Source: Aureococcus anophagefferens (taxonomy: Eukaryota; Sar; Pelagophyceae; Pelagomonadales; Pelagomonadaceae). Taken from it: DNA of 64,000 nt. The position numbers and the translations under genes were made by a program. The notes under the pieces are model-generated. The model had not been told where the DNA came from. It worked only from the letters and a program-made list of their open reading frames with translations, and made no database searches. This document shows positions 8,601 to 30,719 of the stretch, in pieces. The stretch lies in NCBI RefSeq assembly GCF_000186865.1, contig NW_008705579.1, positions 483,443-547,442 on the forward strand, given 5' to 3'. Within the stretch, counting starts at the first letter, position 1, and each line of letters begins with the position of its first letter.

Positions 8601-11600
8601 AGCGTCCAGGACACCTCCTCCGGGAAGAGGCCGTCACCGTTCACCGATGCTGCGTAGCAGCCGTCGGCGAGGCAGAAGCGCTCCGTCCCGGTCGCTCCAG
8701 CGTCGAGCGTCGCGTGGAAGACGCGGTCCCCGCTTTCGGAGTAGAGCGAGAAGAAGGCGTCGGTCCAGCCGTCGAGGCCGGAATCGAACATTTCGAGGCT
8801 GTAGATCGAGGCGCCCGCCTCGCAGGCGAGCGCCGTCGGGGCCCGCGAGGGCGCGCTACTCGGCGCGGGCGCGGGCGCCGCGGTCGTGGGAGACGCGGTC
8901 GGGCTTCCCGGCCGCGGGCTCGGCGCGGGCGTCGGTTTCGCGCTCGGCGCTGGCGTCGGCGAAGGGGTCGTCGGGACGAACTCGACGGCCGCCGGATCGA
9001 GGCACGCGTAGGCCGTTCGTCCGCACGCGTGGACGGGGCCGTCCGCGCACGTCGATTCGCAGCAGTCGCCGCCGTCGTAGCCGCAGGCCTCGCTGTTGTA
9101 GGCGCCCGGGTCGCAGGCGCCGTCGCCGACGTAGGCCGGGTGCGGCACGAGGCACGTCGACGGCACCGTCGGGCGGGGCGTCGGGCGATCCGACGGCGCG
9201 GCCGTCGAAGGACGGCGCGTCGCGAGGATTGAGGTGGGCGCGCGCGTCGGCGAGCTCGTCGACGGCGAATCCGTAGGAGCGGGCGTCGGCCGCGGCGTCG
9301 GCGTCGGCGTCGGCCGCGGCGTCGGCAACGGCGTCGGCGTCGGCGTCGGCGGCGACAAGGTCGCCGTAGGCGACGACGTGTACGCGCCGAGGGTGACGGT
9401 CGACGAGGCTGTTGTCAGGAGCGACGCCTCCGTGTTCACCGTGGCCGATTCGAGGGCAGATCCGGATCCGCTCTCGATGGCCGCGGCCAGCGCCGTGGCG
9501 TAGCTCCCGTCCTCGACGGCCGAATTGAGCTCGGAAACGGTCGACGAGCCATCGCCGGCCACCTCGAGTTCGAAGCTGATTTCGGTCGCGTCGCTCAGTC
9601 GACGACGGCCCTCGATGGCGACGAGACGGCGGTTCTCGTAGTCGCTCGCCGCGACGCCCGATATCGACTCTTCCGGGACGTCGGTCAGCGTGTTGGAGAT
9701 GGAGACCTTGAACACCTCGATCGCGCCCGCGTCACCGTTGAAGGCGTCCGCATCGACGCCGTCCAACACGAGAGCCGTGACCACGCGCGCGAAGTCGTAG
9801 GCGACGGGCGCGGTCGTCGGCCGCGTCGACGGCGCGGTCGTCGGCCGCGTCGACGGCGCGGTCGTCGGCCCGGTCGACGGCGCGGTCGTCGGCCCGGTCG
9901 ACGGCGCGGTCGTCGGCCCGGTCGACGGCGCGTCGAGCGCGCGCGCCGTCGGAGGTGCAGTCGGCAAGGCCGACGGCCGCGGGTCGCAGACGTTCGCGTT
10001 GCAGATGCCGCCGCGACAGTCCGACGTCTCCTCGCACGTCGCTCCGAAGCCGCACGCGGGACAAACGCCACCGCCGCAGTCGACGTCGGTCTCCGCGCCG
10101 TCGAGGACGCCGTTGGCGCACGCGAGCGGCGTCGGTGCGACCGTGGATGGCGCCGAGGACGGACTCGCTGTGGGCCGGACGGCGACGACGGCATCGGTGA
10201 TTTCCGCGACGTCGACCGTCTCGAAGGCGGTGCTGCCCTGCTCCTCGGCCTCCGCGGCCAGCTCGCTCTCGAGGGCGTCCTCGGTGAGGTCCGTCGAAAT
10301 GGTCTCGACGAGCGAGCTCGCGTCTTCGGGACTCGCCGCGGCGATCGTGTACTCGACGACCGTCTCGCCGCTCGCGCCCTCGCCGAAGCTCACTTCGATG
10401 TCCTCCTCGTCGACGCCCAGGATGTTCGCGAGAGACGCGGAGAACACGTCCTCTGAGCTTTCGACGAGGGCCTCCGACATCCCGGACACGGTGAATTCGC
10501 CCGTCACCTCGGGCGCCAGCGTCGGCGCGGGCGAAGCTGGCGACCCCGTCGGCGAAGCGGTCGGGACGCTGCTGCAACCGCAGGCGTCGAAGCACGCGTC
10601 AAAGGCCAGCGAATCATCGGCTCCGACGACGGCGCAGCGGGTGCTCGGTAGGACCGCGACCCACGGGCAGTCCTTGGACGGCGTGTTCTTCTTGTGCCAC
10701 GACGCGCTGTCCCGGCAAAGCAGCGTCGGGGAGAGGGACGGGACCGCGGTCGGGGGAGCGGGCGTCGGCCGCGGCGTCGGCGCGAAGACGGGACTCGCCG
10801 TGGGGGTTCCGGGAGTGGCGGTCGGCGCGGGCGTCGGTTCGGGCGTCGGAACGGGTCGCGGCGCCAGACTCGGGACGCCCGAAGGCGCCGACGTGGTCGG
10901 AGATTCCGACGGCGAGAGCGTCGTAGGCGCGGCCGTGGTCGGCGCTCGTGTCGAAGGCTCCGGTGTCGGCCGCGGCGTCGGCGCGAACACGGGACTCGCC
11001 GTGGGGGTTCCGGGAGTGGCGGTCGGCGCGGGCGTGGGCGCTCGCGTCGAAGGCCGGGAGGTCGTCGGCGCCTCCGAAGTCGGCGCCGAGGTCGTGGGGA
11101 AGGATGTAGGCGAGGACGTCGTCGGTGCGAGCGTCGTCGGTGCCGGAGTTGGAGCGGGCGTCGGCGGATGCGACGCCCGCGGCGTCGGCGCAAACACGGG
11201 ACTCGCCGTGGGGGTTCCGGGAGTGGCGGTCGGCGCGGGCGTCGGTCGGGGCGTCGGAACGGGCGACGGCTCCGAGGTCGTCGGGGCGGCGGTCGTCGGG
11301 GCGACGGTCGTCGGGACGCTCGAACTGGGCTCCACGGACGGCCGAAATGTGGGCTCCAGGCTTGGCTCCAAGGTCGGCGATTCTGTCGGCGCGGGCGTGA
11401 ACGAGACCTCGAACTCCGCCGAGTCCGCGAGCGTCGGGTCGTCCGAGCACGCCAGCGTCAGGATGTAGGTGCTGACCTCCGCGTCGCCGGCGACGGTCTG
11501 CGCCTGCTGGCCGTCGTTGGTCGCGGTCTCCGCGCGGACGACGGTCCCGTCCGAGTCCGAGACCTCGACGTCCACGGTCGCGCAGGCGCCGGGGTCGCCG

Positions 11601-14600
11601 CGGTAGACCCAGAGGACGTCGCACTCGACGCCGGAGACGCAGGTCGAGCCGATGCCGATGCTCGTGATGCGCAGGAAGGAGGCGGATGGGGCGAGCGTCG
11701 GGGCGAGCGTCGGCTCGGGCGTCGGGCGGGGCGAGGGCGCGGACGTCGTCGGAGATGAGGTTGTCGGGACGCTCGTCGTTGGCTGCATCGTAGGACTGCT
11801 GGTCGGGAGGGGTGCGGGAATGCTCGTTGTTGGAGCGGCGGACGGCTCCCTCGAGTAGGTAGGCTCCGCGCTTGGCTCTGGCGACTCCGTCGGCGGCAAC
11901 GTGGGCGCGAAGGTCGCAGTCGGGCTCGGCGTCGGGGGGAGCTCGCAGCTGGTGGAGGTAGAGACGTACGCCACGTCGTTGATGTAGCACAGATCGTTCC
12001 CGTCGCCGCCAGATGGAGGAGTGTTGGCGTCATCGTAGGGGTTTTGCAGCCGAAGCGTGTCGTCTCCGTCACCGCCAAATAGACCGCTAGACAGGCTACC
12101 GCCGAGTTCTAGTGTATCATCGCCTTGTCCCCCATAGAGGTAGTTAATGGTGCCCGAGCTGTAGAGAATGTCGTCTCCGTCACCGCCATGAAGCTCGGTC
12201 ATTTGGCCATATGCAATGGTGAGCGTGTCGTCACCGTCGTCGCCGTAGATCTTAGTATCGACTCCGTATTGGACGGTGATCACGTCGTCGCCGGCGTCTC
12301 CTCTAATGACGTTGCCCGGACCGAATGAGCCGGCGCTTCCAGACTCCATGTAGATGAAGTCATCCCCAGGACCGCCAGAGACACGGTAAGCGTTGTAAAA
12401 GTAACCCTCCAACACCACAACGTCATCCCCTTCGAGAGCGTCGATAGTGCCGAAACTGAAACTGTCGGTCGAATGGACGCAGTCGGAGAAGTCGGTGAGA
12501 TCCAGATAGAAGCTAAGAATGTTCCGATCCAGGTCCAGGCAGATACAGCCCTGGCGGCTGGAGAAGTCGTAAGTCCAGTCTATGATACTCAAATCGTCAT
12601 TTTGGCCGGCAGACTGGGTTGCTTCAGTTTCGTCCGTGCACCACCCGCAGCACGAAGCGCAGTCTCCACCGGCCAGGAAGCAGGCGGCCGTCTCCGCGGG
12701 CGCGGGGCTTGCGGATGGCGACGCAGTGGGTTGCTGCGTGCACCCGAAGCTGACGCCGCAATCGGTGACCGTGCAGCCAGCGGAAGAGGCGAAGTCCAAA
12801 GCCGAGACGCTGCTCGAGATGCACCAGCCGAGGTCCTGGTCGAAGGCGGCAGCACCCTCGAACATCCAGGTCATGTCCGTCACGGACGACGTGTCCCAGG
12901 CGCCGATGTCCTGGTTGAAGGCTTGAGCAATTGTGAACATGTACTTCATGTCCGTCACGGACGACGTGTCCCAGGCGCCGATGTCCTGGTCGAAGGCGTC
13001 AGCACTGTCGAACATGTTGCTCATGTCCGTCACGGACGTCGTGGTCCAGCCGCCGATGTCCTGGTTGAAGTTGGAAGCAAAGGAGAACATCTCGCTCATG
13101 TCCGTCACGGCCGACGTGTCCCAGCCGCCGACGTCCTGGTTGAAGTTGGAAGCAAAGGAGAACATGCGGTTCATGTCCGTGACGGCCGACGTGTCCCAGG
13201 CGCCGATGTCCTGGTCGAAGGCGAAAGTCTCGCTGAGCATCCAGCTCATGTCCGTCACGGACGACGTGTCCCAGGCGCCGATGTCGCGGTCGAAGGCGAT
13301 AGCATTGGAGAACATCTCGCTCATGTCTGTCACGGACGACGTGTCCCAGGCGCCGATATCTTGGTCGAAGGTGTAAGCATGGTAGAACATGCGTCTCATG
13401 TCCGTCACGGACGACGTGTCCCAGGCGCCTATGTCCTCGTTGAAATTATCGGCAGCACCGTAATTGAAATTGCCGTTCGACATACACAGCTCCGACATGT
13501 CCGTCACGGCCGACGTGTCCCACGTCGAGATGTGGCCGTACGTGAGCGCCGCCGCGTCCGCGTCCGACAGCCACGCGTCGACCGCGGTCTCGAGCTCGCT
13601 CTTGTCCGCAAAGCTGTATGAACCGACGGACGGCGGCGCGGTGAGAGCGACGGTCGGACCCGCGGACGGGCTCCGGGAGGGCGCGAGCGTGGGAGCCTCC
13701 GTCGGGATCGGCGCGGGTTCGATCGTCGGCGCGGGCGTGAACGAGACCTCGAACTCCGCCGAGTCCGCGAGCGTCGCGTCGTCCGAGCACGCCAGCGTCA
13801 GGGTGTAGGTGCTGACCTCCGCGTCGCCGGCGACGGTCTGCGTCTGCTGGCCGTCGTTGGTCGCGGTCTCCGCGCGGACGACGGTCCCGTCCGGGTCCGA
13901 GACCTCGACGTCCACGGTCGCGCAGGCGCCGGGGTCGCCGCGGTAGACCCAGAGGACCTCGCACTCGACGCCGGAGACGCAGGTCGCGCCGGCGCCGATG
14001 CTCGTGATGCGCAGGAAGGAGGCCGTCGGGGGCGAGGAGGGCGTCGCGCTGGGGCTCGAGGACGGACTCGGGGACGGCGCCGAAGAGGGCGACGCGGTCG
14101 GCGCGGCCGTCGGCGCGGTCGTGGGCGCTATGGTGGGCAAAGCTGTCGGCTTGGGCGTGGTGGTGGGCGTTTCCGTCGGTGAGAGCGTCGGTGAGCACCC
14201 GTCGTACATCAGGGTGAATCGCGCCTGGGTTCCGTTGTCGCAGAAGGTGCCCTGCACGTAGGAAGTCGCGTCGAACTCGACAAACAGCTCTCCCGCCTGC
14301 ACGTAGGAGAGCACATCCATGTCGTAGAAGCAGAATTGCCAGTGCGCGCAGCTCCCTATCATGGCGTAGTGGCCGTTGCCGCACGTGTCGAGGAGATCGC
14401 CGTTGGCGTAGACGGAGACGGCCTGTTTCCAGTCTGCGAAATCGCCCAGCATGTCCACTTTGAGCGTCGCCGACGTCGCGCATGAGAGCTGTGGGAACGT
14501 CGCGCCGTTGCGGCATCCGTCGCTGTCGCACGAGACGAGGGCCGTGGAGCTCGGCGTGTCGTCGTAGATGGTCGGCGTCGCGTCTGTGTCGTCCGGGCAC

Positions 14601-17600
14601 CCGTCGTACATCAGGGTGAATCGCACTTGGGTTCCATTGTCGCAGAAGGTGCCCTGCACAGAGGAATCTGCGTCGAACTCGACGAACAGCTCCCCCGCAT
14701 GCACGTAGGAGAGCACGTCCATGTCGTAGAAGCAGAACTGCCAGTCCTCGCAGCTGCTGAGCATGGCGTAGGCGCCATTGCCGCAACTGTCGAGGAGAGT
14801 GCCGTTGGCATAGACGTCGACGTACTCGGCAGTATTCTCGAAATCGCCCAGCACGTCCACTTTGAGCGTCGCCGACGTCGCGCATGAGAGCTGGGGGAAC
14901 GTCGCGCCGTTGCGGCATCCGTCGCTGTCGCACGAGACGAGGGCCGTGGAGCTCGGCGTGTCGTCGTAGACGGTCGGCGTCGCGTCTGTGTCGTCCGGGC
15001 ACCCGTCGTACATCAGGGTGAATCGCGCCTGGGTTCCGTTGTCGCAGAATGTGCCTTGCACGAAGGGACTCGCGTCGAACTCGACGAACAGCTCCCCCGC
15101 CTGCACGTAGGAGAGCACGTCCATGTCGTAGGAGCAGAATTGCCAGTCCTCGCAGCTGCTGAGCATGTTGTAGTGGCCATTGCCGCACCTGTCGAGAAGA
15201 GTGCCGTTGGCGTAGACGTCGACGTACTCGTTGTCCCAATCGAAATCTCCAAGGAGCTCCACTTTGAGCGTCGCCGACGTCGCGCATGAGAGCTGGGGGA
15301 ACGTCGCGCCGTTGCGGCATCCGTCGCTGTCGCACGAGACGAGGGCCGTGGAGCTCGGCGTGTCGTCGTAGACGGTCGGCGTCGCGTCGGTGTCGTCCGG
15401 GCACCCGTCGTACATCAGTGTGAATCGCGCCTGGGTTCCGTTGTCGCAGAAGGCGCCCTGCACCACGTGGGTCGCGTCGAACTCGACGAACAGCTCCCCC
15501 GCATGCACGTAGGAGAGCACGTCCATGTCGTAGAAGCAGGATTGCCAGTCCGTGCAGCTGTTGAAAAAGTTGTAGTGGCCGTTGCCACATATGTCGAGGA
15601 AAGTGCCGTTGGCGTAGACGTCGACGTACTCGTCGTATATCTGGAAATTTCCCAGCATCTCTAGCTTGAGCGTCGCCGACGTCGCGCACGAGAGCTGGGG
15701 GAACGTCGCGCCGGTGCGGCAGCCGTCGCTGTCGCACGAGACGAGGGCCGTGGAACTCCTCGGCTCGCCCGGCATCGTCGTCGGTGGCAGCGACGGCGCC
15801 GCGGAGGGGCCCAGCGTCGGCGCCGCCGACGGCGGGAGCACGGGAGCCGCCGTCGGTCTCGTCGTCGGCGCGGAGCTCGCGGACGGCGCGGCGCTCGGCG
15901 CGTGCGTGCCGCAGTCGTTCTCGTACCACGCGACGGTGTCGTCATTCCAGGACGCCGACAGCGCGTCGACGTCGCCGTCGCCGTCGACGTCTATGGCGAA
16001 GACGGAGTAGGCGCCGTCCGCGAGCGTCGTGATGACGCGCTCCGCGAAGGACTGGGACCCGTCGTTCTCGTACCACGCGACCGTGTCGTCGTCGTAGGAC
16101 GCCGAGAGCGCGTCGACGTCGCCGTCGCCGTCGACGTCGATCGCGAAAAGAGAGTAGGGGCGGTCTATCAGCGTCGTGATGACGCGCTCTGAGAAGGACT
16201 CGGACCCGTCGTTCTCGTACCAGGCGATGGTATCGTCGCGGGAGGACGCCGAGAGCGCGTCGACGTCACCGTCGCCGTCGACGTCGATCGCGAAGACGGA
16301 GGTGGCGCTGTCCGCGAGCGTCGTGATGATGCGCTCCGTGAAGGACTGCGACCCGTCGTTCTCGTACCACGCGACCGTGTCGTCGTTCATGGAGGCCGAG
16401 AGCACGTCAACGTCGCCGTCGCCGTCGACGTCGATCGCAAAGACAGAGCGGGCGCTGTCCGCCAGCGTCGTGATGACGCGCTCGGCGAAGGACTGGGACC
16501 CGTCGTTCTCGTACCACGCGACCGTGTCGTCAACGGCGGACGCCGATAGCGCGTCGACGTTGCCATCGCCGTCGACGTCGACCGCGAAGACGGCGAAAGC
16601 ATAGTCCGCCAGCGTCGTGATGATGCGCTCGGTGAAGGACTGGGACCCGTCGTTCTCGTACCACGCGACGGCGTCATCTTCGGACGCAGACAGCGCGTCC
16701 ACGTCCCCGTCGCCGTCGACGTCGATCGTAAAGACGGAGTTGGCGCCTCCGGCGGAGTTGGTGATGATCCTCACCGAGAACGAGACACTGGCGCAGCTCA
16801 CGGTCGGTCGCGGCGTCGCTGCAAGCTCGCAGTCGTTCTCGTACCAGGCGACAATATCGTCGTTCCAGGACACCGAGAGCGCATCCACGTCCCCGTCCCC
16901 GTCGACGTCGATCGCGAATACGCCAGTCGTCCATTCTTTTGACTCCCCGATGATGTGCTCCGTGAAGGACAGCGAGCTGTCATTCTCGTACCATGCAACT
17001 TTGCTACCAAACGCTGACAGCGCATCCACGTCGCTATCGCCGTCAACGTCGGTCCCATAGACGGATCTAGCACCGTTCGCACTGGTGGTGATGTCACACT
17101 CCGCAAACGACTGGGACCCGTCGTTCTCGTACCACGCAACCGTGTGATCGTTCATAGATGCAGACAGCACATCGATATCGCTGTCCCCATCAACATCCAT
17201 CGCGAAGACGGAGGCTGCGCCATCTGCGAGCGTCGTGACGACACGTTCGGTGAAGGACTGGGACCCGTTGTTCTCATACAAAGCGATCGTGTCGTCGGAT
17301 TTTGATGCCGACAGCACATCCAAGTCGCCGTCGTCGTCGACATCGATGGCATAGACGGAGTAGCCGAAATCTGCCGTCGCTGTGAGCACCCGCTCTGCGA
17401 AGGACTGGGACCCGTCGTTCTCGTACCAGGCGACCGTGTCGTCATAGTGAGCCGCCGACAGGACATCCGTGTCTCCGTCGCCGTCGACGTCGATGGCGAA
17501 CACAGAGGCGGCACCGTCCGCCGAATCTGTGATCATACGCTCGGTGAAGCCCAGAGATCCCTCGTTTACGTGCCATGCTATCGTGTCATCATAGATGGAC

Positions 17601-19282
17601 GCAGACAGCACGTCCGTGTCCCCATCACCATCAACATCGAGAGTGTAGACTGAGTGGGCACCGTCCGCCGCATTGGTAACGACGCGCTCGGTAAAGGACT
17701 GCAACCCGTCGTTCTCGTGCCACGCGACTGTATCGTCACCCATAGACGCAGATAGCACGTCTACGTCTCCATCACTGTCCAGGTCGATTGCGAAGATGGC
17801 ATGAGCACCGTCCGCCGAGTTTGTGATGACGCGCTCCGAGAACGCGACGCTGGCGCAGAAGACGGTGGGCCGCGGCGTCGGCGCGTGCGTGCCGCAGTCG
17901 TTCTCGTACCAGGCCACCGTGTCGTCGTTGATGGACGCCGAGAGCGCATCGACGTCGCCGTCGCCGTCGACGTCGATCGCAAAGACGGAATAGGCGCCCT
18001 CCGCCGAGTTTGTGATGTTGCGTTCCGCGAAGGTCTCGGCCCCATCGTTCTCGTACCAGGCGACCGTGTCGTCGCTTTCGGACGCCGACAGCACGTCCGC
18101 GTCCCCGTCACCGTTGACGTCGATCGCGAAGATGGAGTCGGCGCCATTCACCCAGTTCGAGATGACCCGTCCGGTGAAGGACTGGGAGCCATCGTTCTCG
18201 TACCACGCGACCGCGTTGTTGCCGAGGGACGCCGAGAGCGCGTCCATGTCGCCGTCGCCGTCGACGTCGATGGCGAAGACGGAGCGGGCGCTGTCCGCCA
18301 GCGTCGTGATGATCCAATTGTCCTTGAAGGACTGGGAGCCATCGTTCTCATACCACGCGACTGTGTCGTAGCCTGCGTCTGCTGATAGCACGTCGATGTC
18401 GCCGTCGCCGTCGACGTCGATCGCGAAGACGGACAGGGCGCCCTCCGCCGAGTATGTGATGACACGCTCGGTGAAGGACAGGGACCCGTCGTTCTCGTAC
18501 CACGCGACCGTGTCGTCGAACTCGGACGCCGAGAGCGCATCGACGTTCCCGTCGCCATCGACGTCGATCGCGAAGACGGACATGACGCTGTTCGCCGATT
18601 CTGTGATCTGGTGGTCAGTGAAGGACTGGGAGCTGTCGTTCTCGTACCACGCGACCGTGTCGTCGTTGTAGGACCCCGACAGCACGTCGACGTCGCCGTC
18701 GCCGTCAACGTCGATGGCGAAGACGGAGACACCGCCGTCCACCGTAGTCGTGATGTCGCGCCTGGCAAAGAACACCTCGTCCTCGTCCTCGAGCCGGCGT
18801 TTGCCGCCGCCGCCGTAGTAGTAGCCGTAGCGATCGTCGTCGGTGGTGTCGTCAGAGTAGTAGGTCGAGGGCGCCCACGTCGGGGATGACGTCGAGCCAG
18901 CCGCCCCGTTCTCGTACCACGCGACCTCGGCGAAGTTCGCCGACAGCACGTCGACGTCGCCGTCGCCGTCGACGTCGATGGCGTAGACGGAGTAGACGTC
19001 GCCCGCCGAGTTCGTGATCTGGCGCTCGGAGAACGCGACGCTCCCGCAAGAGGCGCCCACCGAGTCGACGCTCCAGCACGCCAGGACAAACAAGCAGCCT
19101 CTTGCCGCGCCGATCAGCCGCCCGCCGCGGCGCGGCGCGCGGCGCGCCCCGTCGCGGCGCGCCCCGTCGCGCCGCGCTTCGTCGCGCCGCGCGGCGCGCG
19201 CGCGGGACGGCCCGGGTCGACGGCCCGCCGCCCGCGGCTGCGCCTGGTTGGGGCTGCGCATGCCGCGAGGCGTCGGCACCAT
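2632..19282 (-). CDS. Giant mosaic cell-surface receptor/adhesin with GCC2/GCC3 and multi-pass C-terminus (about 5,510 aa, 3 exons)
   Basis: Best model is complement(join(2632..4601, 4658..6361, 6414..19282)) with one extra base near 7112. The start ATG at 19282 leads to a basic stretch and a signal peptide ([10 protein letters not shown]). Domains in order: 20 VCBS/FG-GAP repeats, four CUB-like Cys modules, a Kre9/KNH-like Ig module, BspA-type DUF285 repeats, RTX-like Gly/Asp repeats, a second KNH-like module, long Pro/Thr linkers, an ShK-like Cys module, a Cys-rich [17 protein letters not shown] module, an LNR (CGYDGGDCC), a second FG-GAP block, EGF-like and GCC2/GCC3 Cys repeats, then about seven transmembrane helices between about 5600 and 3690 and a cytosolic tail. 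The C-terminal segment matches the stramenopile GCC2/GCC3 membrane family ([20 protein letters not shown]). Likely role is adhesion or sensing at the cell surface; this is inference from domains. The two introns restore [11 protein letters not shown] and FNCIELRETD. Ligand unknown. Confidence 0.8.
4602..4657 (-). other. GC-AG mini-intron bounded by an 8-bp duplication (introner-like relic)
   Basis: On the minus strand, GCATCGAA occurs at 4657-4650 and again at 4601-4594. Removing 4657-4602 (GC donor, TAG acceptor, 56 nt) joins FNC to IELRETD and opens the frame into the conserved ADYSIDC region. The acceptor TAG is the in-frame stop of the upstream open frame. A GT donor at 4645 (44 nt) also keeps the frame but inserts four extra residues. 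Confidence 0.65.
6362..6413 (-). other. 52-nt GT-AG intron in the giant receptor gene
   Basis: Minus-strand GTCTCGCTC...CGCCCAG. Its removal joins TCPAG to [12 protein letters not shown], the typical start of a GCC2/GCC3-family repeat, and repairs the frame change at this point. No convincing flanking duplication is visible, unlike several other introns here. Confidence 0.7.
6740..8310 (-). repeat. Second FG-GAP/VCBS block of the giant receptor
   Basis: About ten divergent repeats of the form [13 protein letters not shown] followed by a Phe/Tyr-rich strand, spaced about 50-70 residues apart. They resemble integrin-alpha-type FG-GAP blades more than the first block, which is nearly uniform. 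The single-base frameshift near 7112 lies in one repeat (GDGLP/DLVVG). Confidence 0.75.
10730..11940 (-). repeat. Pro/Thr/Ser-rich linker with recurring [12 protein letters not shown] unit
   Basis: Several near-identical copies of a unit encoding [20 protein letters not shown] alternate with (A/S)PTT-type repeats. A closely related unit (TATPGNP-A-PVF) dominates the neighbouring gene at 30929-36565, so the unit is shared between loci. A KNH-like module ([13 protein letters not shown]) lies inside, at about 11400-11690. Presumably an extended, O-glycosylated stalk. Confidence 0.75.
11950..12460 (-). repeat. RTX-like Gly/Asp calcium-binding nonapeptide repeats
   Basis: The protein contains [46 protein letters not shown] and [10 protein letters not shown] at about 15-25 residue spacing. 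These fit the GGxGxDxUx parallel beta-roll consensus of bacterial hemolysin-type secreted proteins. They are an inserted module in a eukaryotic surface protein. The last units are followed by a Cys-containing cap ([15 protein letters not shown]). Nothing else here suggests a toxin. Confidence 0.7.
12735..13560 (-). repeat. BspA-type leucine-rich repeats (DUF285)
   Basis: About nine tandem units of roughly 25 residues with consensus [20 protein letters not shown], periodic at 75-78 bases in the DNA. DUF285 repeats are typical of bacterial and protist surface proteins. The block begins with a helical cap ([20 protein letters not shown]) and ends in a Cys-rich cap. Confidence 0.85.
14190..15775 (-). 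repeat. Four tandem CUB-like Cys modules
   Basis: Four copies of about 134 residues (about 402-bp period) share [17 protein letters not shown], the strand pattern [17 protein letters not shown], and GELFVEFDA plus [17 protein letters not shown]. The spacing of Cys and the YVDVY...FTLMYDGC ends are reminiscent of CUB/F5-8-type beta sandwiches, but I cannot assign a named family with certainty. DNA identity between copies is high, implying recent duplication or gene conversion. Confidence 0.7.
15910..19060 (-). repeat. Array of 20 VCBS/FG-GAP repeats
   Basis: Twenty units of about 52 residues with consensus [18 protein letters not shown] then [15 protein letters not shown]. Each DGDGD loop is a canonical calcium-binding motif. 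The plus strand therefore shows recurrent gtcgccgtcgccgtcgacg tracts every about 150-170 bases. The units are alike enough to suggest unequal crossing-over. Confidence 0.9.
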
Positions 19283-19522
19283 TCCCCTGGCTGTCGCCTC
19301 GACTTGAGTCTTGACCTTTCGGTCGAACAGCAACAAAATCCATGGCCCCCGCCGCTCGCTGTTGTTTGCTTCAGTAACGCGAGAGCCGGCTCGGCGGCTG
19401 CGGACCGCGGGTCGGCCCCGGCCGAGGCTGCTCCCGGAGTTGCCGCCGCCGCCCAAGTTGGCGAACGAGGGCAAAGGTGAATCACTCACCACAAGCAATG
19501 GGCGCTCGATAAGCACTGCCTC
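19283..19522. promoter_or_regulatory. Divergent intergenic region (shared promoter)
   Basis: 240 bases separate the start codons of the minus-strand giant receptor and the plus-strand DCAF4-like gene, so both promoters must lie here or overlap the coding ends. No TATA box or other clear element is visible. Confidence 0.4.
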
Positions 19523-20746
19523 ATGGGCCGCCGCAGCAGCAACAAGCGCCGCGCGCCGCCGGCGCCGACGGCCGACACCGCGCGCATCGAAGCCGCGCTC
19601 GCGCGCCAGCGCGCGGCGCGCACCGCCTCTCAAGCACCAGCGGCACCATCGGAGATCCCGGGCTTCGCGTACGACGCGTCGCGGAACCGCTACTTCCCCG
19701 GCGCCGCAGCGCCGCCGCCGCCGCCGCCGGACCGGAATCCCTGGGGCGAGCCGCCGGCGGCGTCTGTCGTCGCGCCGCTCTTCGCGCTCGCGACGCGCGC
19801 GGTCATGCGCGGCCGGTGCCGCGTCGCCGTCGGCCCGAGCGCGTCCGGCGGCGCGGCCTGCGCCGCCGCGGCCCGGGCCCCCGACGGCGCCGTCGCCGCG
19901 GCGACGGCGGAGACGGTCTTCGTCGCCGACGGCGACGCGAGCTTCTCCGCGCCGTGCCGCGACGTCGCCTGCCTCCGATTCTGCGACGGCGCGCTCCTCG
20001 TCGGCGAGGCCGGCGGCGCGGGCGTCGCGGGCTCCGTCGTCGTCCTGGCGCGCGGCGCCCAATCCCCTGGCCGCGCCGTCGCGCGCGTCTCCGCGCCGCG
20101 CGTGCGCACGCTCTGGTGCGCCGACGGCGCGTCTCCCGCGCGGCTCGCGCTCGGCGGCGGCGCGGGCGCGCGCCGCGGCCGGGCCGTCGGCGCCGTCGCC
20201 TTCGTCGCCGACGGCGCGGCCGTCGCGACGTTCGAGCTGCCGTCGGACGCCTTCGCCGCGCGCGTCGACGGCGACGCGGCCGTCGTCGGCTGCCGCGACG
20301 GCGTCGTCCGCCGCGTCGACTCCCGCGGCGGGCCGCCGTCCACGCTCCTCGACCGCCTCGACGGCGGCGTCGACGCCCTGGAGCCCTTCGAGCCCGGGCG
20401 CTACGTCGCGGCGTCGAAGCGCGGCGACGTCGCGCTCTTCGACGAGCGCGTCCCGGGGCGGAGGGTCCTGTCCCTCGCGCGGCCGCCCGGCGCCGGCCGC
20501 GCGGCCGGCGGCGTCGCCGTGTCCGCGGCGCTCCGCGCCTGCGCCGCCGCGGACGCCGGCGGCGTCTGCCGCGCCTGGAGCCTCGACGACGGCGCCATCC
20601 TCGCCGCCGCGGCGCGGCCCGGCGGCGGCCCCTGCGTCGCGCTCGGCTGCGCCGCGGCGGGCGACGTGCTCCCGGCCTTTGCGTTCCTCGACCGGGCCGA
20701 CGGCGCGTTCCTGCAGCTCACGGCGCGGGCCGAGGATGTCAGCTAA
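19523..20746 (+). CDS. WD40-repeat protein, DCAF4/WDR21-like
   Basis: 407 aa. The N-terminal motif [17 protein letters not shown] (about residue 45) is characteristic of the DCAF4 (WDR21) family, substrate receptors of CUL4-DDB1 ubiquitin ligases. The remainder is a diverged beta propeller: blades are recognisable from [54 protein letters not shown] and [12 protein letters not shown]. The WD dipeptides are mostly lost, and the composition is extremely Ala/Arg/Gly-rich from GC pressure. A short basic N-terminus precedes the motif. Divergent from the giant receptor gene. Predicted nuclear/cytosolic. WD-like propeller fairly sure; DCAF4 orthology is inference from the N-terminal motif. Confidence 0.72.
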
Positions 20747-20828
20747 GTTTAGTTCCGCGCGGGAAGGGCCGCAGCTCACGGCGAGGGCCGCAGCTCACGG
20801 CGAGAACCGCAGCTCACGGCGCGGGCCG
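20712..20828 (+). repeat. Four direct repeats at the 3' end of the WD40 gene
   Basis: GCAGCTCACGGCG plus (C/A)GGGCC or a close variant occurs four times, the first inside the last codons of the WD40 CDS and the others just after the stop. Units are about 19-20 bases in the distal three. The last copies lie between two convergent genes. Confidence 0.6.
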
Positions 20829-22925: not shown

Positions 22926-25900
22926 TCAGTAGCGCGCCGAGGCCGCGCGGCGGAGCGACGCGGAGATGGACCGGTGGTCGTTGTAGTTGTCCGAGGGCGC
23001 GGCGAGGAGGCCCTGGCGCTGGTGCGGCGTCTCGAAGTAGTAGGGGTAGTTCCCGTCGGTGCCGCGGCGCGTCCAGTAGGGGTTCGGCGCGCGGACGGGC
23101 GCGAGGCGCGGCTGGTACTGGGGCGGGGCGTCGTGGCCGTTGTAGCCCACGGGGGGCACGGCGACGTAGTGGGGCACGGGCACGTAGTAGCGCGCCTTCT
23201 TCGGCGACTCGGCCGACGCCGCGGGGCGGCTGTTGTTGATCGGGTAGAACTCCGGCGGCGGCGCGCGCGGCCGCGGCGGCGTCGCGGCGGGCGCCGGGGG
23301 CGCCGGCGCGGGCGCCGGCGCGAGGGGCGCGGGGAAGGCGGGCGCCGCCGGGGCCGCGGGCGCCGCGGGCTTGGCCGCGTCCGGCGACGGCCAGAAATTC
23401 GAGTAGCGCCGCGGCGCGGACGTGGACACGCGGCGGCCGCCGGCCCGGGGCGGCGACGCCGGCGGCGGCGCCGCGTCGCCGGCGAAGAAGGCCGCGAGCA
23501 GGTTCACCGTGTCGTCGCGGTAGAAGCTGTGGTGCGTGCCGAGCGCCGTCGTCCGCCGCGACGCGGCGACGCCGCTGTCCGTGAGGAGCGCCCAGGCCGC
23601 GTTCCACTTGTCCGGGTCGACGTCGGAGTCGCCGGCGTAGGTCCGCGCGAAGACGGGGATGCGCGCCTTGGCGATGGCCTTGCAGAGGTCGGGCGCGCCG
23701 TTCTCGTGGTACGACCGGAGCGGCTCCGCGCGGAACGTGTGCAGGAACCCCAGCGCCGTGCCCTTGCAGCGGTACATGAGCTCCGCGGCCTTCAGGCCCG
23801 ACGGCGCCGCGCCGCTCTGGAGCTGCTCGCGGCAGCGGTCGAGGAGCGCGGGCACCTTCTTGAGCACGACGCCCTTCCCGAGCGGCTTCACGAGGCACTT
23901 CGGCAGCTTCCGCGCCTTCTTGACGCTCTTGAGGCTCGCGGCGCTGAGGCCGCCGAGCACGGGCGACACCATGGCGAAGGTGACGACCTTCTTGGGGTAC
24001 TTGGCGGCGAAGTGGGCCGCGACGAGGCTCCCGAAGCTCACGCCGATGACGTGGACCGCCGGCGCGCCCAGGCGCTCGAGGAGCTCGCCGATCTGGCGCG
24101 TCCAGAGGTCGGGCCCGTTGTCCTCGAAGGCCGTGCGGTCGCTGAGGCCCACGTTGAAGCGGTCGAAGACGATGACGTCCGCGCCGTGCGCGGCCGCGAG
24201 CTGCTTGGCCATGTTCTCGTACATGAGGCACGCGCCCGTCGCGCCGGCGCAAAGGAGCACGGGCTTCGTCACGCGGTTCGCGCCCGATTTCGGCGCGAGG
24301 ACGCGCGCGAAGCAGACGCCGTCGACGAGCGTGAACGTGTCGCGGACGGGCACGCGGAGCAGGCCGCGCGCGGCCGCGGCCGTCAGGTCCTCCCGCGGCC
24401 GGCCGGACGCCGCCGACGCGTCGCCGGGCGCGACCTTGCCCTTGGCGCCGGGGGGCGCCGCCGTCGCCGCGGCGTCGGGGTAGCGGATCCAGCTGAGCAC
24501 GTAGCCGTTGGGGCCGAAGTGGACCTGGGCGGCGCGCGCGTGGGACGCGCCCCGACGTCCTCTCGGTGCCTTTCGACGAGCGATCCTCTCTCGGAGCAAC
24601 GCATGGGCGAACCGTCGAGTCGAAGCATCTCCGCCCCGAAGCGGACCATCGTCGTCGTCGCGATGTAGCAGACCAGGATGAAGCGCGCGGCCGGGTAGGC
24701 GTCGCGGAGCGCGTCCACGAAGTCGGCGACGAGGTCCGCGCGGCCCGTGTGCTGGACGACGAAGCCGACCTCGGCGCCCCGGGGCACGCGCGCCTTGACG
24801 AGGTCGAGCGCGGCGGCCCGGATCTTCGCGACGCCCTTGGCGCCCGTGCCCTTGGCGAACTTGCTCGGCTTCTCCGTCTGCGGGCGCCGGTGGTAGACGA
24901 ACTCGAGGCCGATCTTGAGCCCCACGGTCTGGACGACCTTGATGAGCGCCGGCGGCAGCTTGAGGCGGCCGCCCTTGATCGCGTAGTCGAGATTCGGCGC
25001 CGCGGCGATGCACGTCGCGCAGGGCTTCAGCGCGTCCATGCGCGCGGCGACGTCCACGGCGTCGGCGCCGCTCCCCGCGAGGCGCAGGGCCTCGAGGGTC
25101 ATCATGCCCAAAGCGCCGCAGACCATGTCCGTGTCGTAGACGACGACGCGGCGCCGCTGGTGCTCGTCGAGCCGGTCCATGGCCGCGTCGAGGTTCGCGC
25201 GCGTCGCCTTGGACACGAGCATGCAGTGGGTCAGGACCAGCACCTCCTCGACGCCCGGCGCGGCCAGGAGAGCGGTCAGCGCGTCGACGTAGGCCTGGCT
25301 CCGCGCGGCGGACGTCGACACCTGCAGGTCCTTGTCGAGGCGCATCCAGTCGCAGACCTCCTGGGAGTCGACGTCGACCTTGTCCTCGTAGCACTCCTCG
25401 TTGACGATGGTCAGCGTCGCCACGACTTTGAGCGTCTCGGGGAAGGCGTCGCGGAGCCGGGCCATGACCTCCACGGGTAAATCCGCGAGCGACGACGCGA
25501 GGATCGCCGTCTTCACGGGGCCCTTGGGCGCGCAGACCTCGTCGAGGTACGCCGACTGCGTCGACGCGACCTGGGCGCTCATGTCCTCGGCCTTTTCTTT
25601 CAGGAGCGCGCCCGTCGCGGAGAGCTTGCGCGCGGCGGCGAAGACGACGCCGGGCTCGTGCGTGTGGATGTGGATCTTGCCGAGCGTGCGGCCCCCGGGC
25701 CCCTCGACGACGAGCGGCACGATGGACGTGCCGTGGTCCTCGACGACCTTGACGAGGTCCGCCGCCGCGACGCCCGCGTCGAGGTCGAGGACGAACTCCG
25801 TGCAGTAGCGGCCGAGGGCGACGTCCTCGGAGCCGTCGTGGTCCGCGGTCGCGTCGAAGGTGTCGGAGACCTTGAACTTGCCCTCGTCGGCGTCGCCGGC

Positions 25901-26593
25901 GTCGTCGCCGGCGCCGCCGCCGGCGGCGAGGGCCGCGGCGCCCCGGAGGAAGTAGGCGAAGCCCTTGGCGCCGGAGTCGACGACGCCCTTGCCCTTGAGG
26001 ATGAACTTGCCGTCGACCTCGAGCTTGTCGGGCGTCTCCTCCGTCGCCGTCCACGCGCTCTTCGCCCAGGACGCGACCAACGCGCCGAGGTGCGACGCGT
26101 CGAGGTGCTTCGTCGACTCCATGACCACGGACGGTAAGGTGCCCTCCTTGCACTCGGCCACGGACGTCATCATCTCCGCGCCGACGTCCTCGAGCGCGGC
26201 CTTGAACTCCGCGACGTCGAGCGCGTCGCGCGCGTCGCCGCAGCGCTCGCCGCAGCGCCGGCTCAGCGACCCGAAGAAGAAGGTCAGGATCGTGCCGCTG
26301 TTGCCCTGGGCCGTGAGCACGCAGGCCTCGGCGACGGACGCCGCGACCTTGGCGAGGCTCCGCTCGCCCGACGCGCGCTTGAGGCCCTTGAGGATGCCCT
26401 TGCCCGCCATGGCCATGTTCGTGCCCGTGTCACCGTCGGGAATCGGGAAGACGTTGATCTTGTTGAGCTCCGCCTTGTTCGCGATCATGTGCTGGCAGCC
26501 CGCCCGGACGAGGGCCGCGTACTCGAGGCCAGACACGGACCGGCAGGCGCCGGACCGCAGCCCCTCGACGGCGGCGTCCTCGTCGCCGCCCAT
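22926..26593 (-). CDS. Fatty acid kinase fusion: FakA (DhaL + middle) - FakB/DegV - alpha/beta hydrolase (about 1,181 aa, 2 exons)
   Basis: Model complement(join(22926..24524, 24647..26593)). Residues 25-220 are a DhaL/DAK2 kinase domain as in FakA: NVFPIPDGDTGTNM (Mg/ATP aspartates), GNSGTIL and GVVDSGAKGF. Residues about 262-345 match the FakA middle domain (GRYCTEF, KIHIHTHEPGVV). Residues about 360-665 are a DegV/FakB fold (ASSLADLP, STSAARSQ, IKGGRLK), whose final HFGPNGY strand is on exon 2. Residues about 690-985 are an alpha/beta hydrolase with nucleophile elbow GVSFGS (Ser about 812), Asp about 950 (GDSDVDP) and His about 980 (GTHHSF). A Pro/Ala/Tyr tail ends the protein. In bacteria FakB presents a fatty acid that FakA phosphorylates to acyl-phosphate; the hydrolase may release that fatty acid. 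No targeting signal is evident. Domain calls are strong; the combined activity is inference. Confidence 0.85.
24525..24646 (-). mobile_element. Intron with introner-element features in the FAK fusion gene
   Basis: 122-nt GT-AG intron on the minus strand. Flanks are GTCCGCTT at the donor and GTCCACTT just after the acceptor (7 of 8 identical). Ends are CGGGGCGGAG and, inverted, CTGGGCGGCG. The interior CCGAGAGAGGATCGCTCGTC nearly matches the introner in the RBR gene. Splicing joins LVCYIATTTM to VHFGPNGY, completing the DegV domain. Confidence 0.65.
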
Positions 26594-26760: not shown

Positions 26761-27381
26761 ATGTCGTACTACGAGAAGGCCTTCGCAGCCCTCCTCGTGA
26801 CGTCTCATGCCGTCGCCTTCTCCGCGCGCGTCCAGTCCACAGCCAGACGACGCGTCGCGGTCTTCTCGTCCGCGACGGTGCCCGTCTTCACATCGGACCT
26901 CGACGCCGAGGGCCTCAACGCCGACGCCGGCGTGGCCATCAAGCCGTCGCCGGGCAAGGGCTTCGGCGCCTTCGCGACGCGGTCCTTCGAGAAGGAGGAG
27001 ATCGTCGGCGACTACGTCGGCGAAAAGCTCACGCTGCGCGAGAAGGACGCGCGCTACCTCGGCCGCGAGCAGAACTGGCGAGACAAGATCTGGCTCGCGT
27101 CGCGAAGGGCGCGCGGCGTCACGGCGTCGGGCACCTACATCTTCCAGGTCGACGACGACCTCTTCGTCGACGCGGAAGACCCGGTGCACGCGAACTGGTG
27201 CCGCTACATAAACCACCACAACGACCCGAACATGCGCGTCAAGTCGCTGGCCTACGCGTTCGGCGGCGAGCCCCGCGTCTGGTTCGTCGCGACGCGCGAC
27301 ATCGCCCCGGGCGAGGAGCTCTCCTTCGACTACGGCGACGAATACTGGGTCGAGACGGACACGCACGTCGTCGACCAATAG
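26761..27381 (+). CDS. SET-domain protein with heterokont plastid presequence
   Basis: 206 aa. The N-terminus is a signal peptide (FAALLVTSHAVAF) ending in an AVAF-S motif, the phenylalanine cleavage signature of bipartite plastid-targeting presequences in stramenopiles, followed by a basic Ser/Arg transit-like stretch (SARVQSTARRR). From about residue 58 is a compact SET methyltransferase: GKGFGAFATRSFEKEEIVG, GDYVGE, YINHHNDPN (the NHxxxPN-type motif) and GEELSFDYGDEYW. The catalytic Tyr and SAM-binding Asn-His are present. There is no pre-SET or post-SET. Predicted lysine methyltransferase in the plastid, substrate unknown; Rubisco LSMT-type enzymes are much longer, so this is a different class. 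Confidence 0.83.
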   Translation: MSYYEKAFAALLVTSHAVAFSARVQSTARRRVAVFSSATVPVFTSDLDAEGLNADAGVAIKPSPGKGFGAFATRSFEKEEIVGDYVGEKLTLREKDARYLGREQNWRDKIWLASRRARGVTASGTYIFQVDDDLFVDAEDPVHANWCRYINHHNDPNMRVKSLAYAFGGEPRVWFVATRDIAPGEELSFDYGDEYWVETDTHVVDQ

Positions 27382-27539
27382 GAGGCGTAAAGTTCAAATA
27401 AAGCGACACATCTCGTCAACTTGACGCTCGCGAAAAGCCACAGCCGCACATCGACGGCAGCCACGCCGCGCGCGCACGCCGCAAACCCGCGCGCCCTCGA
27501 CACAGACACGCACAAACTCCCGCCGCGCCGGCCGCGACC

Positions 27540-29189
27540 ATGGCCGCCGCCGAGGGCCCGCGCGCGCTGCTCAACTTCGAGGTCGTGCTCCTGCGGAGCT
27601 CCACGGCCGAGCCCTGGGGCCTCCAGCTCGAGTACCAGCTCTTCAAGGCGACGGAGGCCGGCGCGGCGAGCCCGCACTGGGGCTGCTTCGTCGTCGCGGA
27701 CATGCGGCCCGGGTCGCCGGCGGCGCGGGAGCGCAAGCTCCGGGTCAACGACACGATCGTCGGCGTCGACGGCGCGGCCGTCGCCGCGGCGTCGCGCGAG
27801 GACTTTGCGGAGCTGCTGAGCCTGCTCCACGGGCGGGGCCGCGCCGTGCTCCTGACCATCGCGCGCGCCAACGAGGCGCCGCCGCGCCGGAGCGTGCGCT
27901 TCGACGGCGACGACGAGGGCGCGCGCGTCGTCGTCGCTTCGGTGGACGACGCGCGCGGCTCCGTGTCCGTCGAGATCCGCGGGCCCTGGCGGCCCGCGCT
28001 CACGGGCGGCGCGCCGACGAGCGCCGAGGCCGAGCCGGAGACGGCCGACGCCGGCGGCGCGCCCGAGGACGAGCCGCCGCCGGCCTGCGCCGAGCCGGAG
28101 GACGCGGTGCCGCCGGATTTCGAGGCCCGCGCCGTCGCCGGCGCGCTCCTCGACGACGCCTTCGACGCGGACTTTGGCGCGGACTTTGACGGCGCCGAGT
28201 TCGCCGACTTCGCGTCCGCGGCGCCCGAGGACGCCGTCGCGGCGGAGCGGGCGCCGGAGCTCCGGGCGCCGGAGCCCGCGGCCGCGCCGGCCGCGCCGCC
28301 GGAGCCCGAGGCCGCGACGGAGCCCGCCGCGGCGCCCGAGGCCGACGCGCCGCCGGAAGCGGCGGAGCCCGAGGCGCCGCCAGAGGCGCCGCCGGAGGCG
28401 CCGCCGGAGGCGCCCGAGGCGCCGGAGCCCGAGGCCGCGGAAGAGGCGGAGACCGCGGCGCCCGAAGCGGCGGAGGAGCCGGAGCCCGAGGCCGCGGAAG
28501 AGGCGGAGACCGTGGCGCCCGAAGCGGCGGAGGAGCCGGACGACCAGCTTGACTTGGAGGCGAAAGCGGCGCACCGCGCGGCGCTCGACACCTACACGCC
28601 CGAGCCAGAGGCGGAACCCGAGGCGGAACCCGAGGCCGAGCCGGAGCCCGAGGCCGAACCGGAACCGGAGCCTGAGGCCGAACCGGAGCCCGAGGCGGAG
28701 CCCGAGCCCGAACCCGAGCCCGAGGCGCCGGAGGCGCAGCCCGAGCCGGAACCGGAGCCGGAGCCCGAGGCGCCCGCGCCCGCGCCCGAAACCCCCGAAA
28801 GCCCCGAGGCCCCCGAGCCGAGCGCCGAGGACCTCGCGCTGAGCGTCGCCTACCGGCTCAAGTTCGTGCCCCTCGACGACGACGGCTGCACGGGCGCGCG
28901 CCTCGCGGGCTTCATCCCGCGCGCGGACGGCGGGAGCCGCGCGGCGCGCTACGCGCCGCCGCTCATGGTCGGCGACGTCCTCGTGGCCCTCGACGAGGCG
29001 AGCGTCGTCTCCGTGCCCTACGCGGACATCCTCGCGGCGCTCCGGAGGCCGCCGCCCCAGGCGCTCCGCTTCGTCCGCGTCCCCGAGGAGCCGCCGGGCG
29101 CGCCGTCGTCGTCGCCCGCGAGCTCCGCCGCGTCGCCGCCGGCGCGGAAGTCGTCCTTCTCCTTCCCCCCCTGGCGGCGGTCGCCCTAG
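27540..29189 (+). CDS. Two-PDZ protein with long Glu/Pro/Ala linker
   Basis: 549 aa. An N-terminal PDZ-like domain (about 8-100: [46 protein letters not shown]) and a C-terminal PDZ-like domain (about 440-515: [40 protein letters not shown]) flank about 300 residues dominated by [13 protein letters not shown] repeats. The acidic repeat probably forms an extended spacer. The tail is Ser/Pro-rich and basic. Likely a scaffold joining two PDZ ligands. The antisense frame is also open across this region, but codes only the complement of the repeat. Starts 158 bases after the SET gene. Confidence 0.8.
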
Positions 29190-29251: not shown

Positions 29252-30719
29252 TCACGCGGACGACGCGGCGCGCGGCACCTCTCGCGGCGCCTTGGTCCGC
29301 GCCGCGGCGGCGACAAGGAGCGCGACGCCAAAGACGGGCACGGCCGCCGCCGCGACGCGCCCGAGGCCCCGGGCGCCGTCCGCGAGGCGCCAGGGCCCGC
29401 CGTGGACCGCGACGAGCGACGCCGCGCCCGCGTCGCGGCTTTGGACGTCCGCGTTGTCCTGCCACGTCGGCGAGTTCGGCACGCCCCAGCCCCCCGGGTG
29501 GACCCAGGTGCAGTGGGCCTCGATGAGCCCGTCGTTGAGCCCGCGCCGCACCTTGGCGAAGCCGTTGTCGCCCCAGTACTCGCCCCACGAGTTGCGGATC
29601 TCCCAGTACGCGCCCAGCTCGTCGCTCTCGCCCCAGCCGACGACCTCGATGACGTGGTCCGTGTCGTTGGCCCGGCGGTCGCCGACGGGCGACGCGGGCA
29701 CGAGGCCGGCGCGGTAGCGGAGGTACGTCGTCGCGTCGACGTTGCACGTGATCGGCCCCGCGCGCGCGATCTCGGCGCGCATGGCCTCGGCCGCCGCCGC
29801 GGCGCCCACGTCGAAGGCGCCGGGCAACCTGCCGTAGGCGGCGACGGCGATGCGCGGGTAGGGGCTCACCGCGCACGTGTCGTCGCCGCAGCACGCCGCG
29901 TCGAGCGGCGCGTCGCCGGGCACCTGTGTGGAAAGCAAATCTTCAATCCGACTTCAATGTGCGCGTAATCGAACGATTTGGACCAGACTCTTTCGCTATG
30001 CTTCGAGGACTCGACGAGAGCAATCGATTCGTCCAAAAATCAGCCGAATCGACTTCGATTTGGCCGAGCTACTAGTAGAGAATCCTGAAGTTTGGTGGGG
30101 ACCCCCCGAACCAGTGGTTGATTTCCACACAGCCGGGCACGGCCCAGCACTCCGTCTCGGAGCCGTCCTCGTTCGACGGCATGCAGTTGCGGCAGATCGT
30201 GTCCGGCGCGCAGCCCAGGCCGTCCGTCGCTAGATAGGGAAAGCAGCCCGCCGCGGGGACGCCGCCGAAGCGCTCGACCCACCGATAGACGCCCGCGGAC
30301 GACCCGCCCGTCGCGCAGCTACCCGCGACGCCCCAGCCCTCGTCGTCGCCGCCGCAGTTGAGCATGACCTGGATCGCCGCGACGAGGTCCGGCCCGTCGA
30401 AGGCGTCGCCGCCGGACCGCAGCGCGAGGTACCGCGCGATCTTCACGCGATCCGCGAGCGCGTGGAACGACGCGAACGCGAAGCACGCGCCGCAGTACTT
30501 GGGCACGTGCTGGTTCATCGACGCCACGAGCATGGAGCCGTAGCCGGCGATGCGCCGCCAGCTGAAGGTCTTCGGCAGCGTCGCCGACGGCGGGACGGGC
30601 AGGTCGGAAGCGGCGAGCAGCACCTCGGCGCGCTCGTCCTCCCAGGCGATGACCTGGCCCCGGGCGTCGCAGCGCGCGGCGAGCAGCGCGAGCATTGCCA
30701 AAATGCGCTTCATTGCCAT
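29252..30719 (-). CDS. Cathepsin Z/X-like papain-family protease with C-terminal membrane anchor (416 aa, 2 exons)
   Basis: Model complement(join(29252..29923, 30141..30719)); ATG at 30719 starts a signal peptide (MKRILAMLALLAARCDARG). LPKTFSWR and NQHVPKYCGACFAFAS carry the oxyanion Gln and catalytic Cys in the cathepsin-Z-specific NQHxPxYCG context. The usual Trp after the Cys is Phe. Catalytic His is in DHVIEVVGWG and Asn in IRNSWGEYWGDNGFAKV on exon 2. The last 40 residues contain a hydrophobic helix (AAAAVPVFGVALLVAAAA) followed by basic residues, suggesting a type I membrane anchor, unusual for this family. The intron is an introner element; splicing gives CWAVPGDAPL. Secretory/lysosomal peptidase. 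Confidence 0.85.
29924..30132 (+). mobile_element. Introner element A (209 bp, 8-bp TSD, TIRs)
   Basis: The element is bounded by inverted repeats CTGTGTGGAAA (11 bp, perfect) and flanked by the direct repeat GTGCCCGG (29916-29923 and 30133-30140). Host gene is on the minus strand: the left TSD supplies the GT donor, and the inverted repeat supplies the CACACAG acceptor, giving a 217-nt intron. The plus strand carries CGTCCAAAAATCAGCCGAA, identical in the element at 46151, so the element lies antisense to its host gene. Confidence 0.88.

Follow-up and report, generated by a model that had tools for sequence, protein, structure and literature searches.

Acyl-phosphate made by the fatty acid kinase Fak is described in bacteria. 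In the two-component Fak of Staphylococcus aureus and others, the DhaL kinase domain and the middle domain belong to FakA, the DegV carrier is the separate protein FakB, and FakA has a third domain, FakA_C, to which FakB docks (excerpts of PMC9136124 and PMC8892158). Upstream of Fak, TesE and TesS release the fatty acid in Enterococcus faecalis and Streptococcus pneumoniae, being separate thioesterases that act on acyl-acyl carrier protein (acyl-ACP) (excerpt of PMC12288450). In the present work we analyzed a window of 64,000 nucleotides from the alga Aureococcus anophagefferens (contig NW_008705579.1, positions 483,443 to 547,442; coordinates below are counted from the first letter of this stretch), where a gene on the minus strand (26593 to 22926) encodes a single chain of 1,181 amino acids with, in this order, a DhaL kinase domain, a FakA middle domain, a DegV/FakB domain, an alpha/beta hydrolase domain and a low-complexity tail. 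The fusion gene is confirmed as real and its two-exon model holds, as read from the genomic sequence. We tentatively propose, with a little less than even confidence, that it encodes a bacterial-type fatty acid kinase on a single chain, extended at the C-terminus by an acquired serine hydrolase, and that the hydrolase would supply the fatty acid to DegV.

The novelty lies in the fused hydrolase and in the eukaryotic host, since the fusion of FakA and FakB is already common in bacteria. We found no eukaryotic Fak in the open-access literature; an excerpt of a trypanosomatid paper mentions FakB of bacteria (PMC8561143).

Gene structure and the DegV-hydrolase joint

Exon 1 (26593-24647, minus strand) is an open frame of 649 codons that comprises the DhaL kinase, the FakA middle domain and most of DegV, and exon 2 (24524-22926, minus strand) is an open frame of 532 codons plus the stop. 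They are separated by an intron of 122 base pairs (24646-24525, minus strand), bordered by GT..AG and in phase 0, that is, between codons. Exon 1 shows a guanine-cytosine (GC) content of 0.69/0.46/0.98 at codon positions 1/2/3 and exon 2 one of 0.70/0.57/0.99, and the third position reaches at least 0.95 in all 11 computed blocks of 100 codons; the intron has no codon periodicity (0.75/0.60/0.78) and lacks the third-position pattern of the exons. All four Pfam matches, three in exon 1 (Dak2, FakA-like_M, DegV) and one in exon 2 (Abhydrolase_1), exceed their gathering scores.

Residues 1-760 of the spliced protein were aligned with 14 one-chain proteins (DhaL, FakA_M, DegV), two of which bear bacterial names. 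The region of the fusion protein that these relatives match begins near residue 17 and ends near residue 665; most of them end within about 20 residues of the latter, P0016 running about 30 further. They continue straight over the joined exon ends, as does the environmental protein P0027. The DegV domain ends with residues 650-665 (24477..24524, minus strand), which read VHFGPNGYVLSWIRY in the fusion protein, VHAGPGTAGVAFIGY in P0004 and IHQGPGAYGVSWMRF in P0027. The start of exon 2 encodes the final DegV strand, in which the H-x-GP motif lies (TTM from exon 1 followed by VHFGPNGYVLSWIRY, against VLGVHAGPGTAGVAFIGY in P0004), so that exon 1 alone encodes an incomplete DegV domain.

P0027 is a diverged protein of 482 amino acids from a metagenome contig of 1,560 base pairs, with Pfam matches to DegV as well as to Abhydrolase_1. 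It reads CCYVGATTMIHQGPGAYGVSWMRF, and its frame then stays open across the linker and on into the hydrolase, with identities to the fusion protein of 67/127 (53%) in DegV, 30/64 (47%) in the linker and 78/153 (51%) in the hydrolase. About 30 residues before its GGR motif are absent from the fusion protein and may represent an unspliced intron. P0027 thus shows, at the level of sequence, a second occurrence of the DegV-hydrolase fusion. Because the kinase and the hydrolase end lie outside P0027, it confirms this joint only.

The first-pass annotation had proposed the length, the domains, the 24647/24524 junction and a single polypeptide, and all of these stand in view of the open frames, the codon-position GC, the Pfam matches and the relatives that complete DegV with the start of exon 2. 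That the hydrolase is a separate gene, the joined reading being a model error, is very improbable. The unspliced frame of exon 1 does run to a stop 736 codons past the ATG (746 from stop to stop), and P0003 omits the middle of the gene; against this, DegV is incomplete without exon 2 and P0027 crosses DegV, linker and hydrolase in one frame. P0003 and P0026 are environmental proteins about 99% identical to the fusion protein. P0003 jumps from about 25260 to 23661 (around 1.6 kb, from DegV to the hydrolase end) with a change of frame, an artefact or a deletion from which no inference is drawn.

The search with the whole 1,181-residue chain as protein query gave no relatives in 7,994 scored candidates, the words being probably swamped by Ala-rich matches. 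Genome contigs scanned with exon 1 alone (19 stretches) and viral contigs scanned with the hydrolase (101 stretches) gave no relative either.

The eukaryotic host of the chain, part of the initial description, is also sustained. The host assembly (49 Mb, 86 contigs) gives matches to chlorophyll a/b-binding proteins (75) and to histones (32), counted exon by exon and not as genes, as expected from a photosynthetic eukaryote. Bacterial contamination was rejected on the basis of these matches, the intron in the gene and a contig of at least 547 kb. The genome contains one DegV match and two Dak2 matches. Dihydroxyacetone kinase (DhaK-DhaL) shares the DhaL domain, to which the algal protein adds FakA_M and DegV, and the second Dak2 gene of the host, L001, may be a candidate dihydroxyacetone kinase.

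One-chain proteins in bacteria and their gene neighbors

The statement that FakA and FakB are separate proteins in bacteria proved too strong, and the joining of both was discarded as a novelty, because a DhaL-FakA_M-DegV chain of about 600 amino acids is widespread in bacteria, often beside PlsY. The scan of prokaryote species genomes confirmed at least 462 relatives, among which two-component FakA may be included, and the best 80 were kept, a set that is consequently biased toward relatives of P0007. Among the taxa mentioned in the record titles are Bacteroidota, Neomarinimicrobiota, KSB1, Calditrichota, Acidobacteriota, Aminicenantes and Thermotogota. The gene was not called by motif at five of the 80 loci, that of L076 was called in a second pass, and L035 is without a called neighbor. 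FakA and FakB lie on one chain in all 75 loci with a called gene, and 73 of 74 genes measure 550-649 amino acids, the remaining one 700-749. Annotated as "DegV family EDD domain-containing protein", such chains resemble the algal protein in having the same three domains in the same order without FakA_C, and conserved kinase residues, and they align over their length at 20-27% identity. They differ in being bacterial, in having no hydrolase and in lying often beside PlsY, which was not found in the genome of the alga. The one-chain relatives are already named DegV family proteins by NCBI and JGI; we found no open-access paper describing the form, and excerpts of PMC13400652 and PMC4993169 do not describe it.

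PlsY (PF02660) accounts for 25 of the 140 immediate neighbors of one-chain genes at 74 loci, that is, about a third of the loci. Another 11 of the 140 carry CoA_binding_2, Succ_CoA_lig and ATP-grasp domains; these lie in the gene after Fak (L048, L056, L062 and similar) and belong to Bacteroidota records, judged by gene length. We take this domain set to be an NDP-forming acyl-CoA synthetase (NDP, nucleoside diphosphate; CoA, coenzyme A), an enzyme that handles acyl-phosphate and could turn the Fak product into acyl-CoA. As both PlsY and this synthetase handle acyl-phosphate, their vicinity speaks for the one-chain proteins acting as a Fak. DUF502 (14/140) and DUF1295 (11/140) also recur as neighbors (loci L005-L084).

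A three-row profile of the hydrolase found no relatives in the 592 proteins encoded within five genes of the 74 loci, nor in the 74 Fak genes. A single-sequence search of the same set gave one match, the DegV part of one Fak gene; its positive control is weak because the control sequences are those used to build the profile. Since the family tally covers 25 of the 108 Pfam families, it could miss a hydrolase encoded by one neighbor only.

Kinase and carrier residues

The DhaL/Dak2 domain covers residues 50-220 (25934..26446, minus strand; Pfam Dak2, E 5e-24) and the FakA middle domain, for linking and dimerization, residues 262-343 (25565..25810, minus strand; PF21645, E 1.6e-10). Conservation was read from an alignment (A6) of 94 rows. 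Besides the window protein it contains 74 genes taken from named bacterial records and 19 proteins obtained by search, of which four are two-component FakA; L076, P0003, P0015, P0023 and P0025 were left out. According to an excerpt of PMC9136124, FakA Asn32, Asp38, Asp40, Thr41, Asn82 and Asp185 are ligands of magnesium or nucleotide, and catalysis requires Cys240, His282 and His284. The first six correspond to N47 (just outside the Pfam Dak2 range), D53, D55, T56, N98 and, by position alone, D206; the 93 other rows are identical in each of these columns. The catalytic residues correspond to C264, H308 and H310, present in 91, 93 and 93 of the 93 rows. Hence all nine residues are kept in the window protein, the DhaL metal-binding aspartates included, with the mentioned reservation for D206. 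In addition, the DhaL part of the exon 1 AlphaFold model (mean pLDDT 68) matches FakA ATP-binding-domain chains in Foldseek with TMt 0.82-0.90, and exon 1 scores 185 bits with the NCBIfam model YloV against 24 bits with DhaL. The kinase half probably makes acyl-phosphate.

The DegV/FakB domain spans residues 361-636 by Pfam (24686..25513, minus strand; E 3.6e-18), scoring 66 bits against a gathering score of 27 with exon 1 only. In FakB1, Thr62, Ser95, Ser171 and His270 form a network at the carboxylate (excerpt of PMC8892158) and Arg173 is required for catalysis (excerpt of PMC9136124). FakB1 is not in the alignment and its numbers were mapped by motif. Arg173 corresponds to R543 (R in 90 of 93 other rows), His270 to H651, encoded by exon 2 and placed by the one-chain relatives, and Ser95 to S461. 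For Thr62 the match depends on the alignment: A6 gives T427, where 76 of 93 rows have T and 16 have S, and a 16-row alignment (A1) gives S432-Q433 at the SQ columns. The DegV region of the model matches DegV/FakB chains with TMt 0.63-0.74. The carrier assigned by the first-pass annotation is thus partly sustained: by alignment most carboxylate-binding and catalytic residues are kept, and two sites, Ser171 (G541 here) and the SGT motif (RAN here), are changed.

Several observations weigh against the proposed reading of the protein. Exon 1 stays below the NCBIfam cut-offs, with 185 of 396 bits for YloV and 95 of 975 for FakA_VfrB, and TIGR00762 (DegV) gives 75.6 bits against 99.7, the last strand from exon 2 being excluded from the query. 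SGT is the rule in the alignment (S in 87, G in 89 and T in 80 of 93 rows). At G541, G is found in 63 and S in 26 of 93 rows, and only 56 of the 93 carry Ser at the S461 position. The exon 1 model falls under a pLDDT of 50 at 46-52 in the kinase and at 423-426, 448-450, 455-463, 533-546 and 552-587 in DegV, among others. To these may be added that P0027 does not cover the kinase and that PlsX, PlsY and PF13607 (NDP-forming acyl-CoA synthetase) gave no match in an exon-by-exon search of the host genome, where a split gene could escape, organelle contigs are perhaps absent and PF13607 misses some succinyl-CoA-ligase-like enzymes. The same searches were positive for PlsY, PlsX and PF13607 in 8, 8 and 11 of 14 control genomes. 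An excerpt of PMC5700162 states that PlsY is without eukaryotic homologues.

One explanation would be that the kinase chemistry is the same and the carboxylic acid another one: with RAN in place of SGT and with inserts near 446-459, the altered DegV pocket would bind a ligand that is not a common fatty acid. We consider this unlikely. The lost SGT, the failed cut-offs, the unsuccessful search for a known acyl-phosphate user and the 20-27% identity with the other 93 rows of the alignment would fit it; on the other hand, most residues that hold or phosphorylate the carboxylate are kept, and the listed DegV/FakB structures with a ligand in their title are fatty acid or lipid binders.

No Pfam match to FakA_C (PF13684, the FakB-docking domain of two-component FakA) was found in the algal protein at E 0.1. 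Its place is occupied by DegV, in the one-chain proteins generally as in residues 361-665 of the fusion protein. An excerpt of PMC9136124 describes FakA_C as structurally related to FakB, and FakA_C may descend, in decayed form, from the carrier of a fused ancestor. A tree of 96 rows puts the window protein next to six two-component FakA rows (support 93/76), on a branch that is very long (3.46); this placement is not decisive for the donor lineage and is compatible with a single origin of the one-chain form as well as with several.

The hydrolase and its possible place in the pathway

The alpha/beta hydrolase domain extends over approximately residues 706-1001 (23469..24356, minus strand) and is followed by a C-terminal tail (22929..23468, minus strand) of low complexity, rich in Pro and Ala and also in Tyr, whose length differs in the near-identical P0026. 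Abhydrolase_1 matches residues 87-188 of exon 2. The probable nucleophile is Ser812 in GVSFG (24036..24038, minus strand), kept in P0026 and P0027. The probable acid is Asp948 or Asp950 in GDSDVD (23622..23630, minus strand), a few residues past a predicted strand, and the probable base is His980 or His981 in GTHHS (23529..23534, minus strand), within a short strand that is predicted at model positions 329-334 and comes just past strand 321-326; both motifs lie beyond the end of P0027. Because the Pfam match spans 102 of 245 profile positions, the acid and the base rest on motifs and on a low-confidence model. The Ser-Asp-His hydrolase of the initial description is therefore sustained in its fold and its GxSxG serine, and its Asp and His are seen as motifs near the expected strands. 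Esterases and monoacylglycerol lipase share fold and GxSxG nucleophile with the algal domain, being free-standing and of low identity to it. The model of the hydrolase is too poor, and its structure matches are too generic, to point to a substrate class. Apart from the gene itself, the host genome gave no match to exon 2.

We infer the kinase activity, the fatty acid ligand, the activity and substrate of the hydrolase and the sequence of steps. In the scheme that we tentatively favor, the DegV domain would hold the fatty acid, and DhaL, the Cys-His-His of the middle domain and the DegV Arg would phosphorylate its carboxylate with ATP to give acyl-phosphate. The hydrolase would most likely provide DegV with the fatty acid by cleaving a nearby acyl ester or thioester. 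Supply is our first choice for the hydrolase because separate thioesterases do so for Fak, a precedent in trans. TesE and TesS probably have another fold than the algal hydrolase.

As no known acyl-phosphate user was found in the genome, a hydrolase step after the kinase would be just as compatible with the data. Use of the kinase product is our second choice and is strengthened by the failure to find PlsX and PlsY. In this alternative the acyl group would pass from the DegV-held acyl-phosphate to the hydrolase serine and then to an acceptor, replacing PlsY or PlsX. In its favor, PlsX, PlsY and PF13607 are unmatched in the host genome, and the bacterial one-chain relatives often adjoin PlsY. 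Exon 2 also has weak NCBIfam acyltransferase matches, far below the cut-off (acetoin dehydrogenase acetyltransferase subunit, E 3e-6; MetX, E 2e-4; OlsI, E 0.02), and RhlA, by description a thioesterase and acyltransferase, is rank 49 among the best 50 Foldseek rows. Nevertheless, the best and most of the listed sequence matches of exon 2 are hydrolases, and the fold match is generic; we regard a step after the kinase as rather improbable.

Even less probable is a hydrolase that is a passenger or regulatory domain without channeling, the two halves working separately. The low-complexity tail would suit such a domain, as would the lack of a similar neighbor among the 592 proteins; yet P0027 keeps the linker and both domains at similar identity.

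Regarding the surroundings of the gene, an upstream exon with a targeting signal was rejected, given that 167 base pairs separate the start codon from the ATG (26761) of a divergent SET-domain gene and that homology begins about 17 residues in. The SET-domain gene (26761-27378, plus strand) and the fusion gene share a very short upstream region, and the N-terminus of the former resembles what we take to be a plastid-targeting signal. A stop-to-stop frame of 4,583 codons (7043-20794, minus strand), with many repeats and Pro/Thr-rich spacers, resembles a giant surface protein. Another frame (27402-29186, plus strand) combines a PDZ domain with a long acidic repeat of Ala, Glu and Pro, and a stretch of a papain-family protease lies at 29255-29950 (minus strand).

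It is possible, though doubtful, that some algae run a one-chain acyl-phosphate route in which hydrolase and kinase exchange the DegV-held acyl group, activating lipid-bound acyl groups with ATP without acyl-CoA, acyl-ACP, PlsX or PlsY; the hydrolase there may be an acyltransferase that uses the product. If the alga has a Fak with a built-in hydrolase, a eukaryote would be able to activate fatty acids as acyl-phosphate, and the sharp question would be what consumes it where PlsX and PlsY were not found. The fusion offers one protein in which fatty acid release, binding and phosphorylation can be assayed together.

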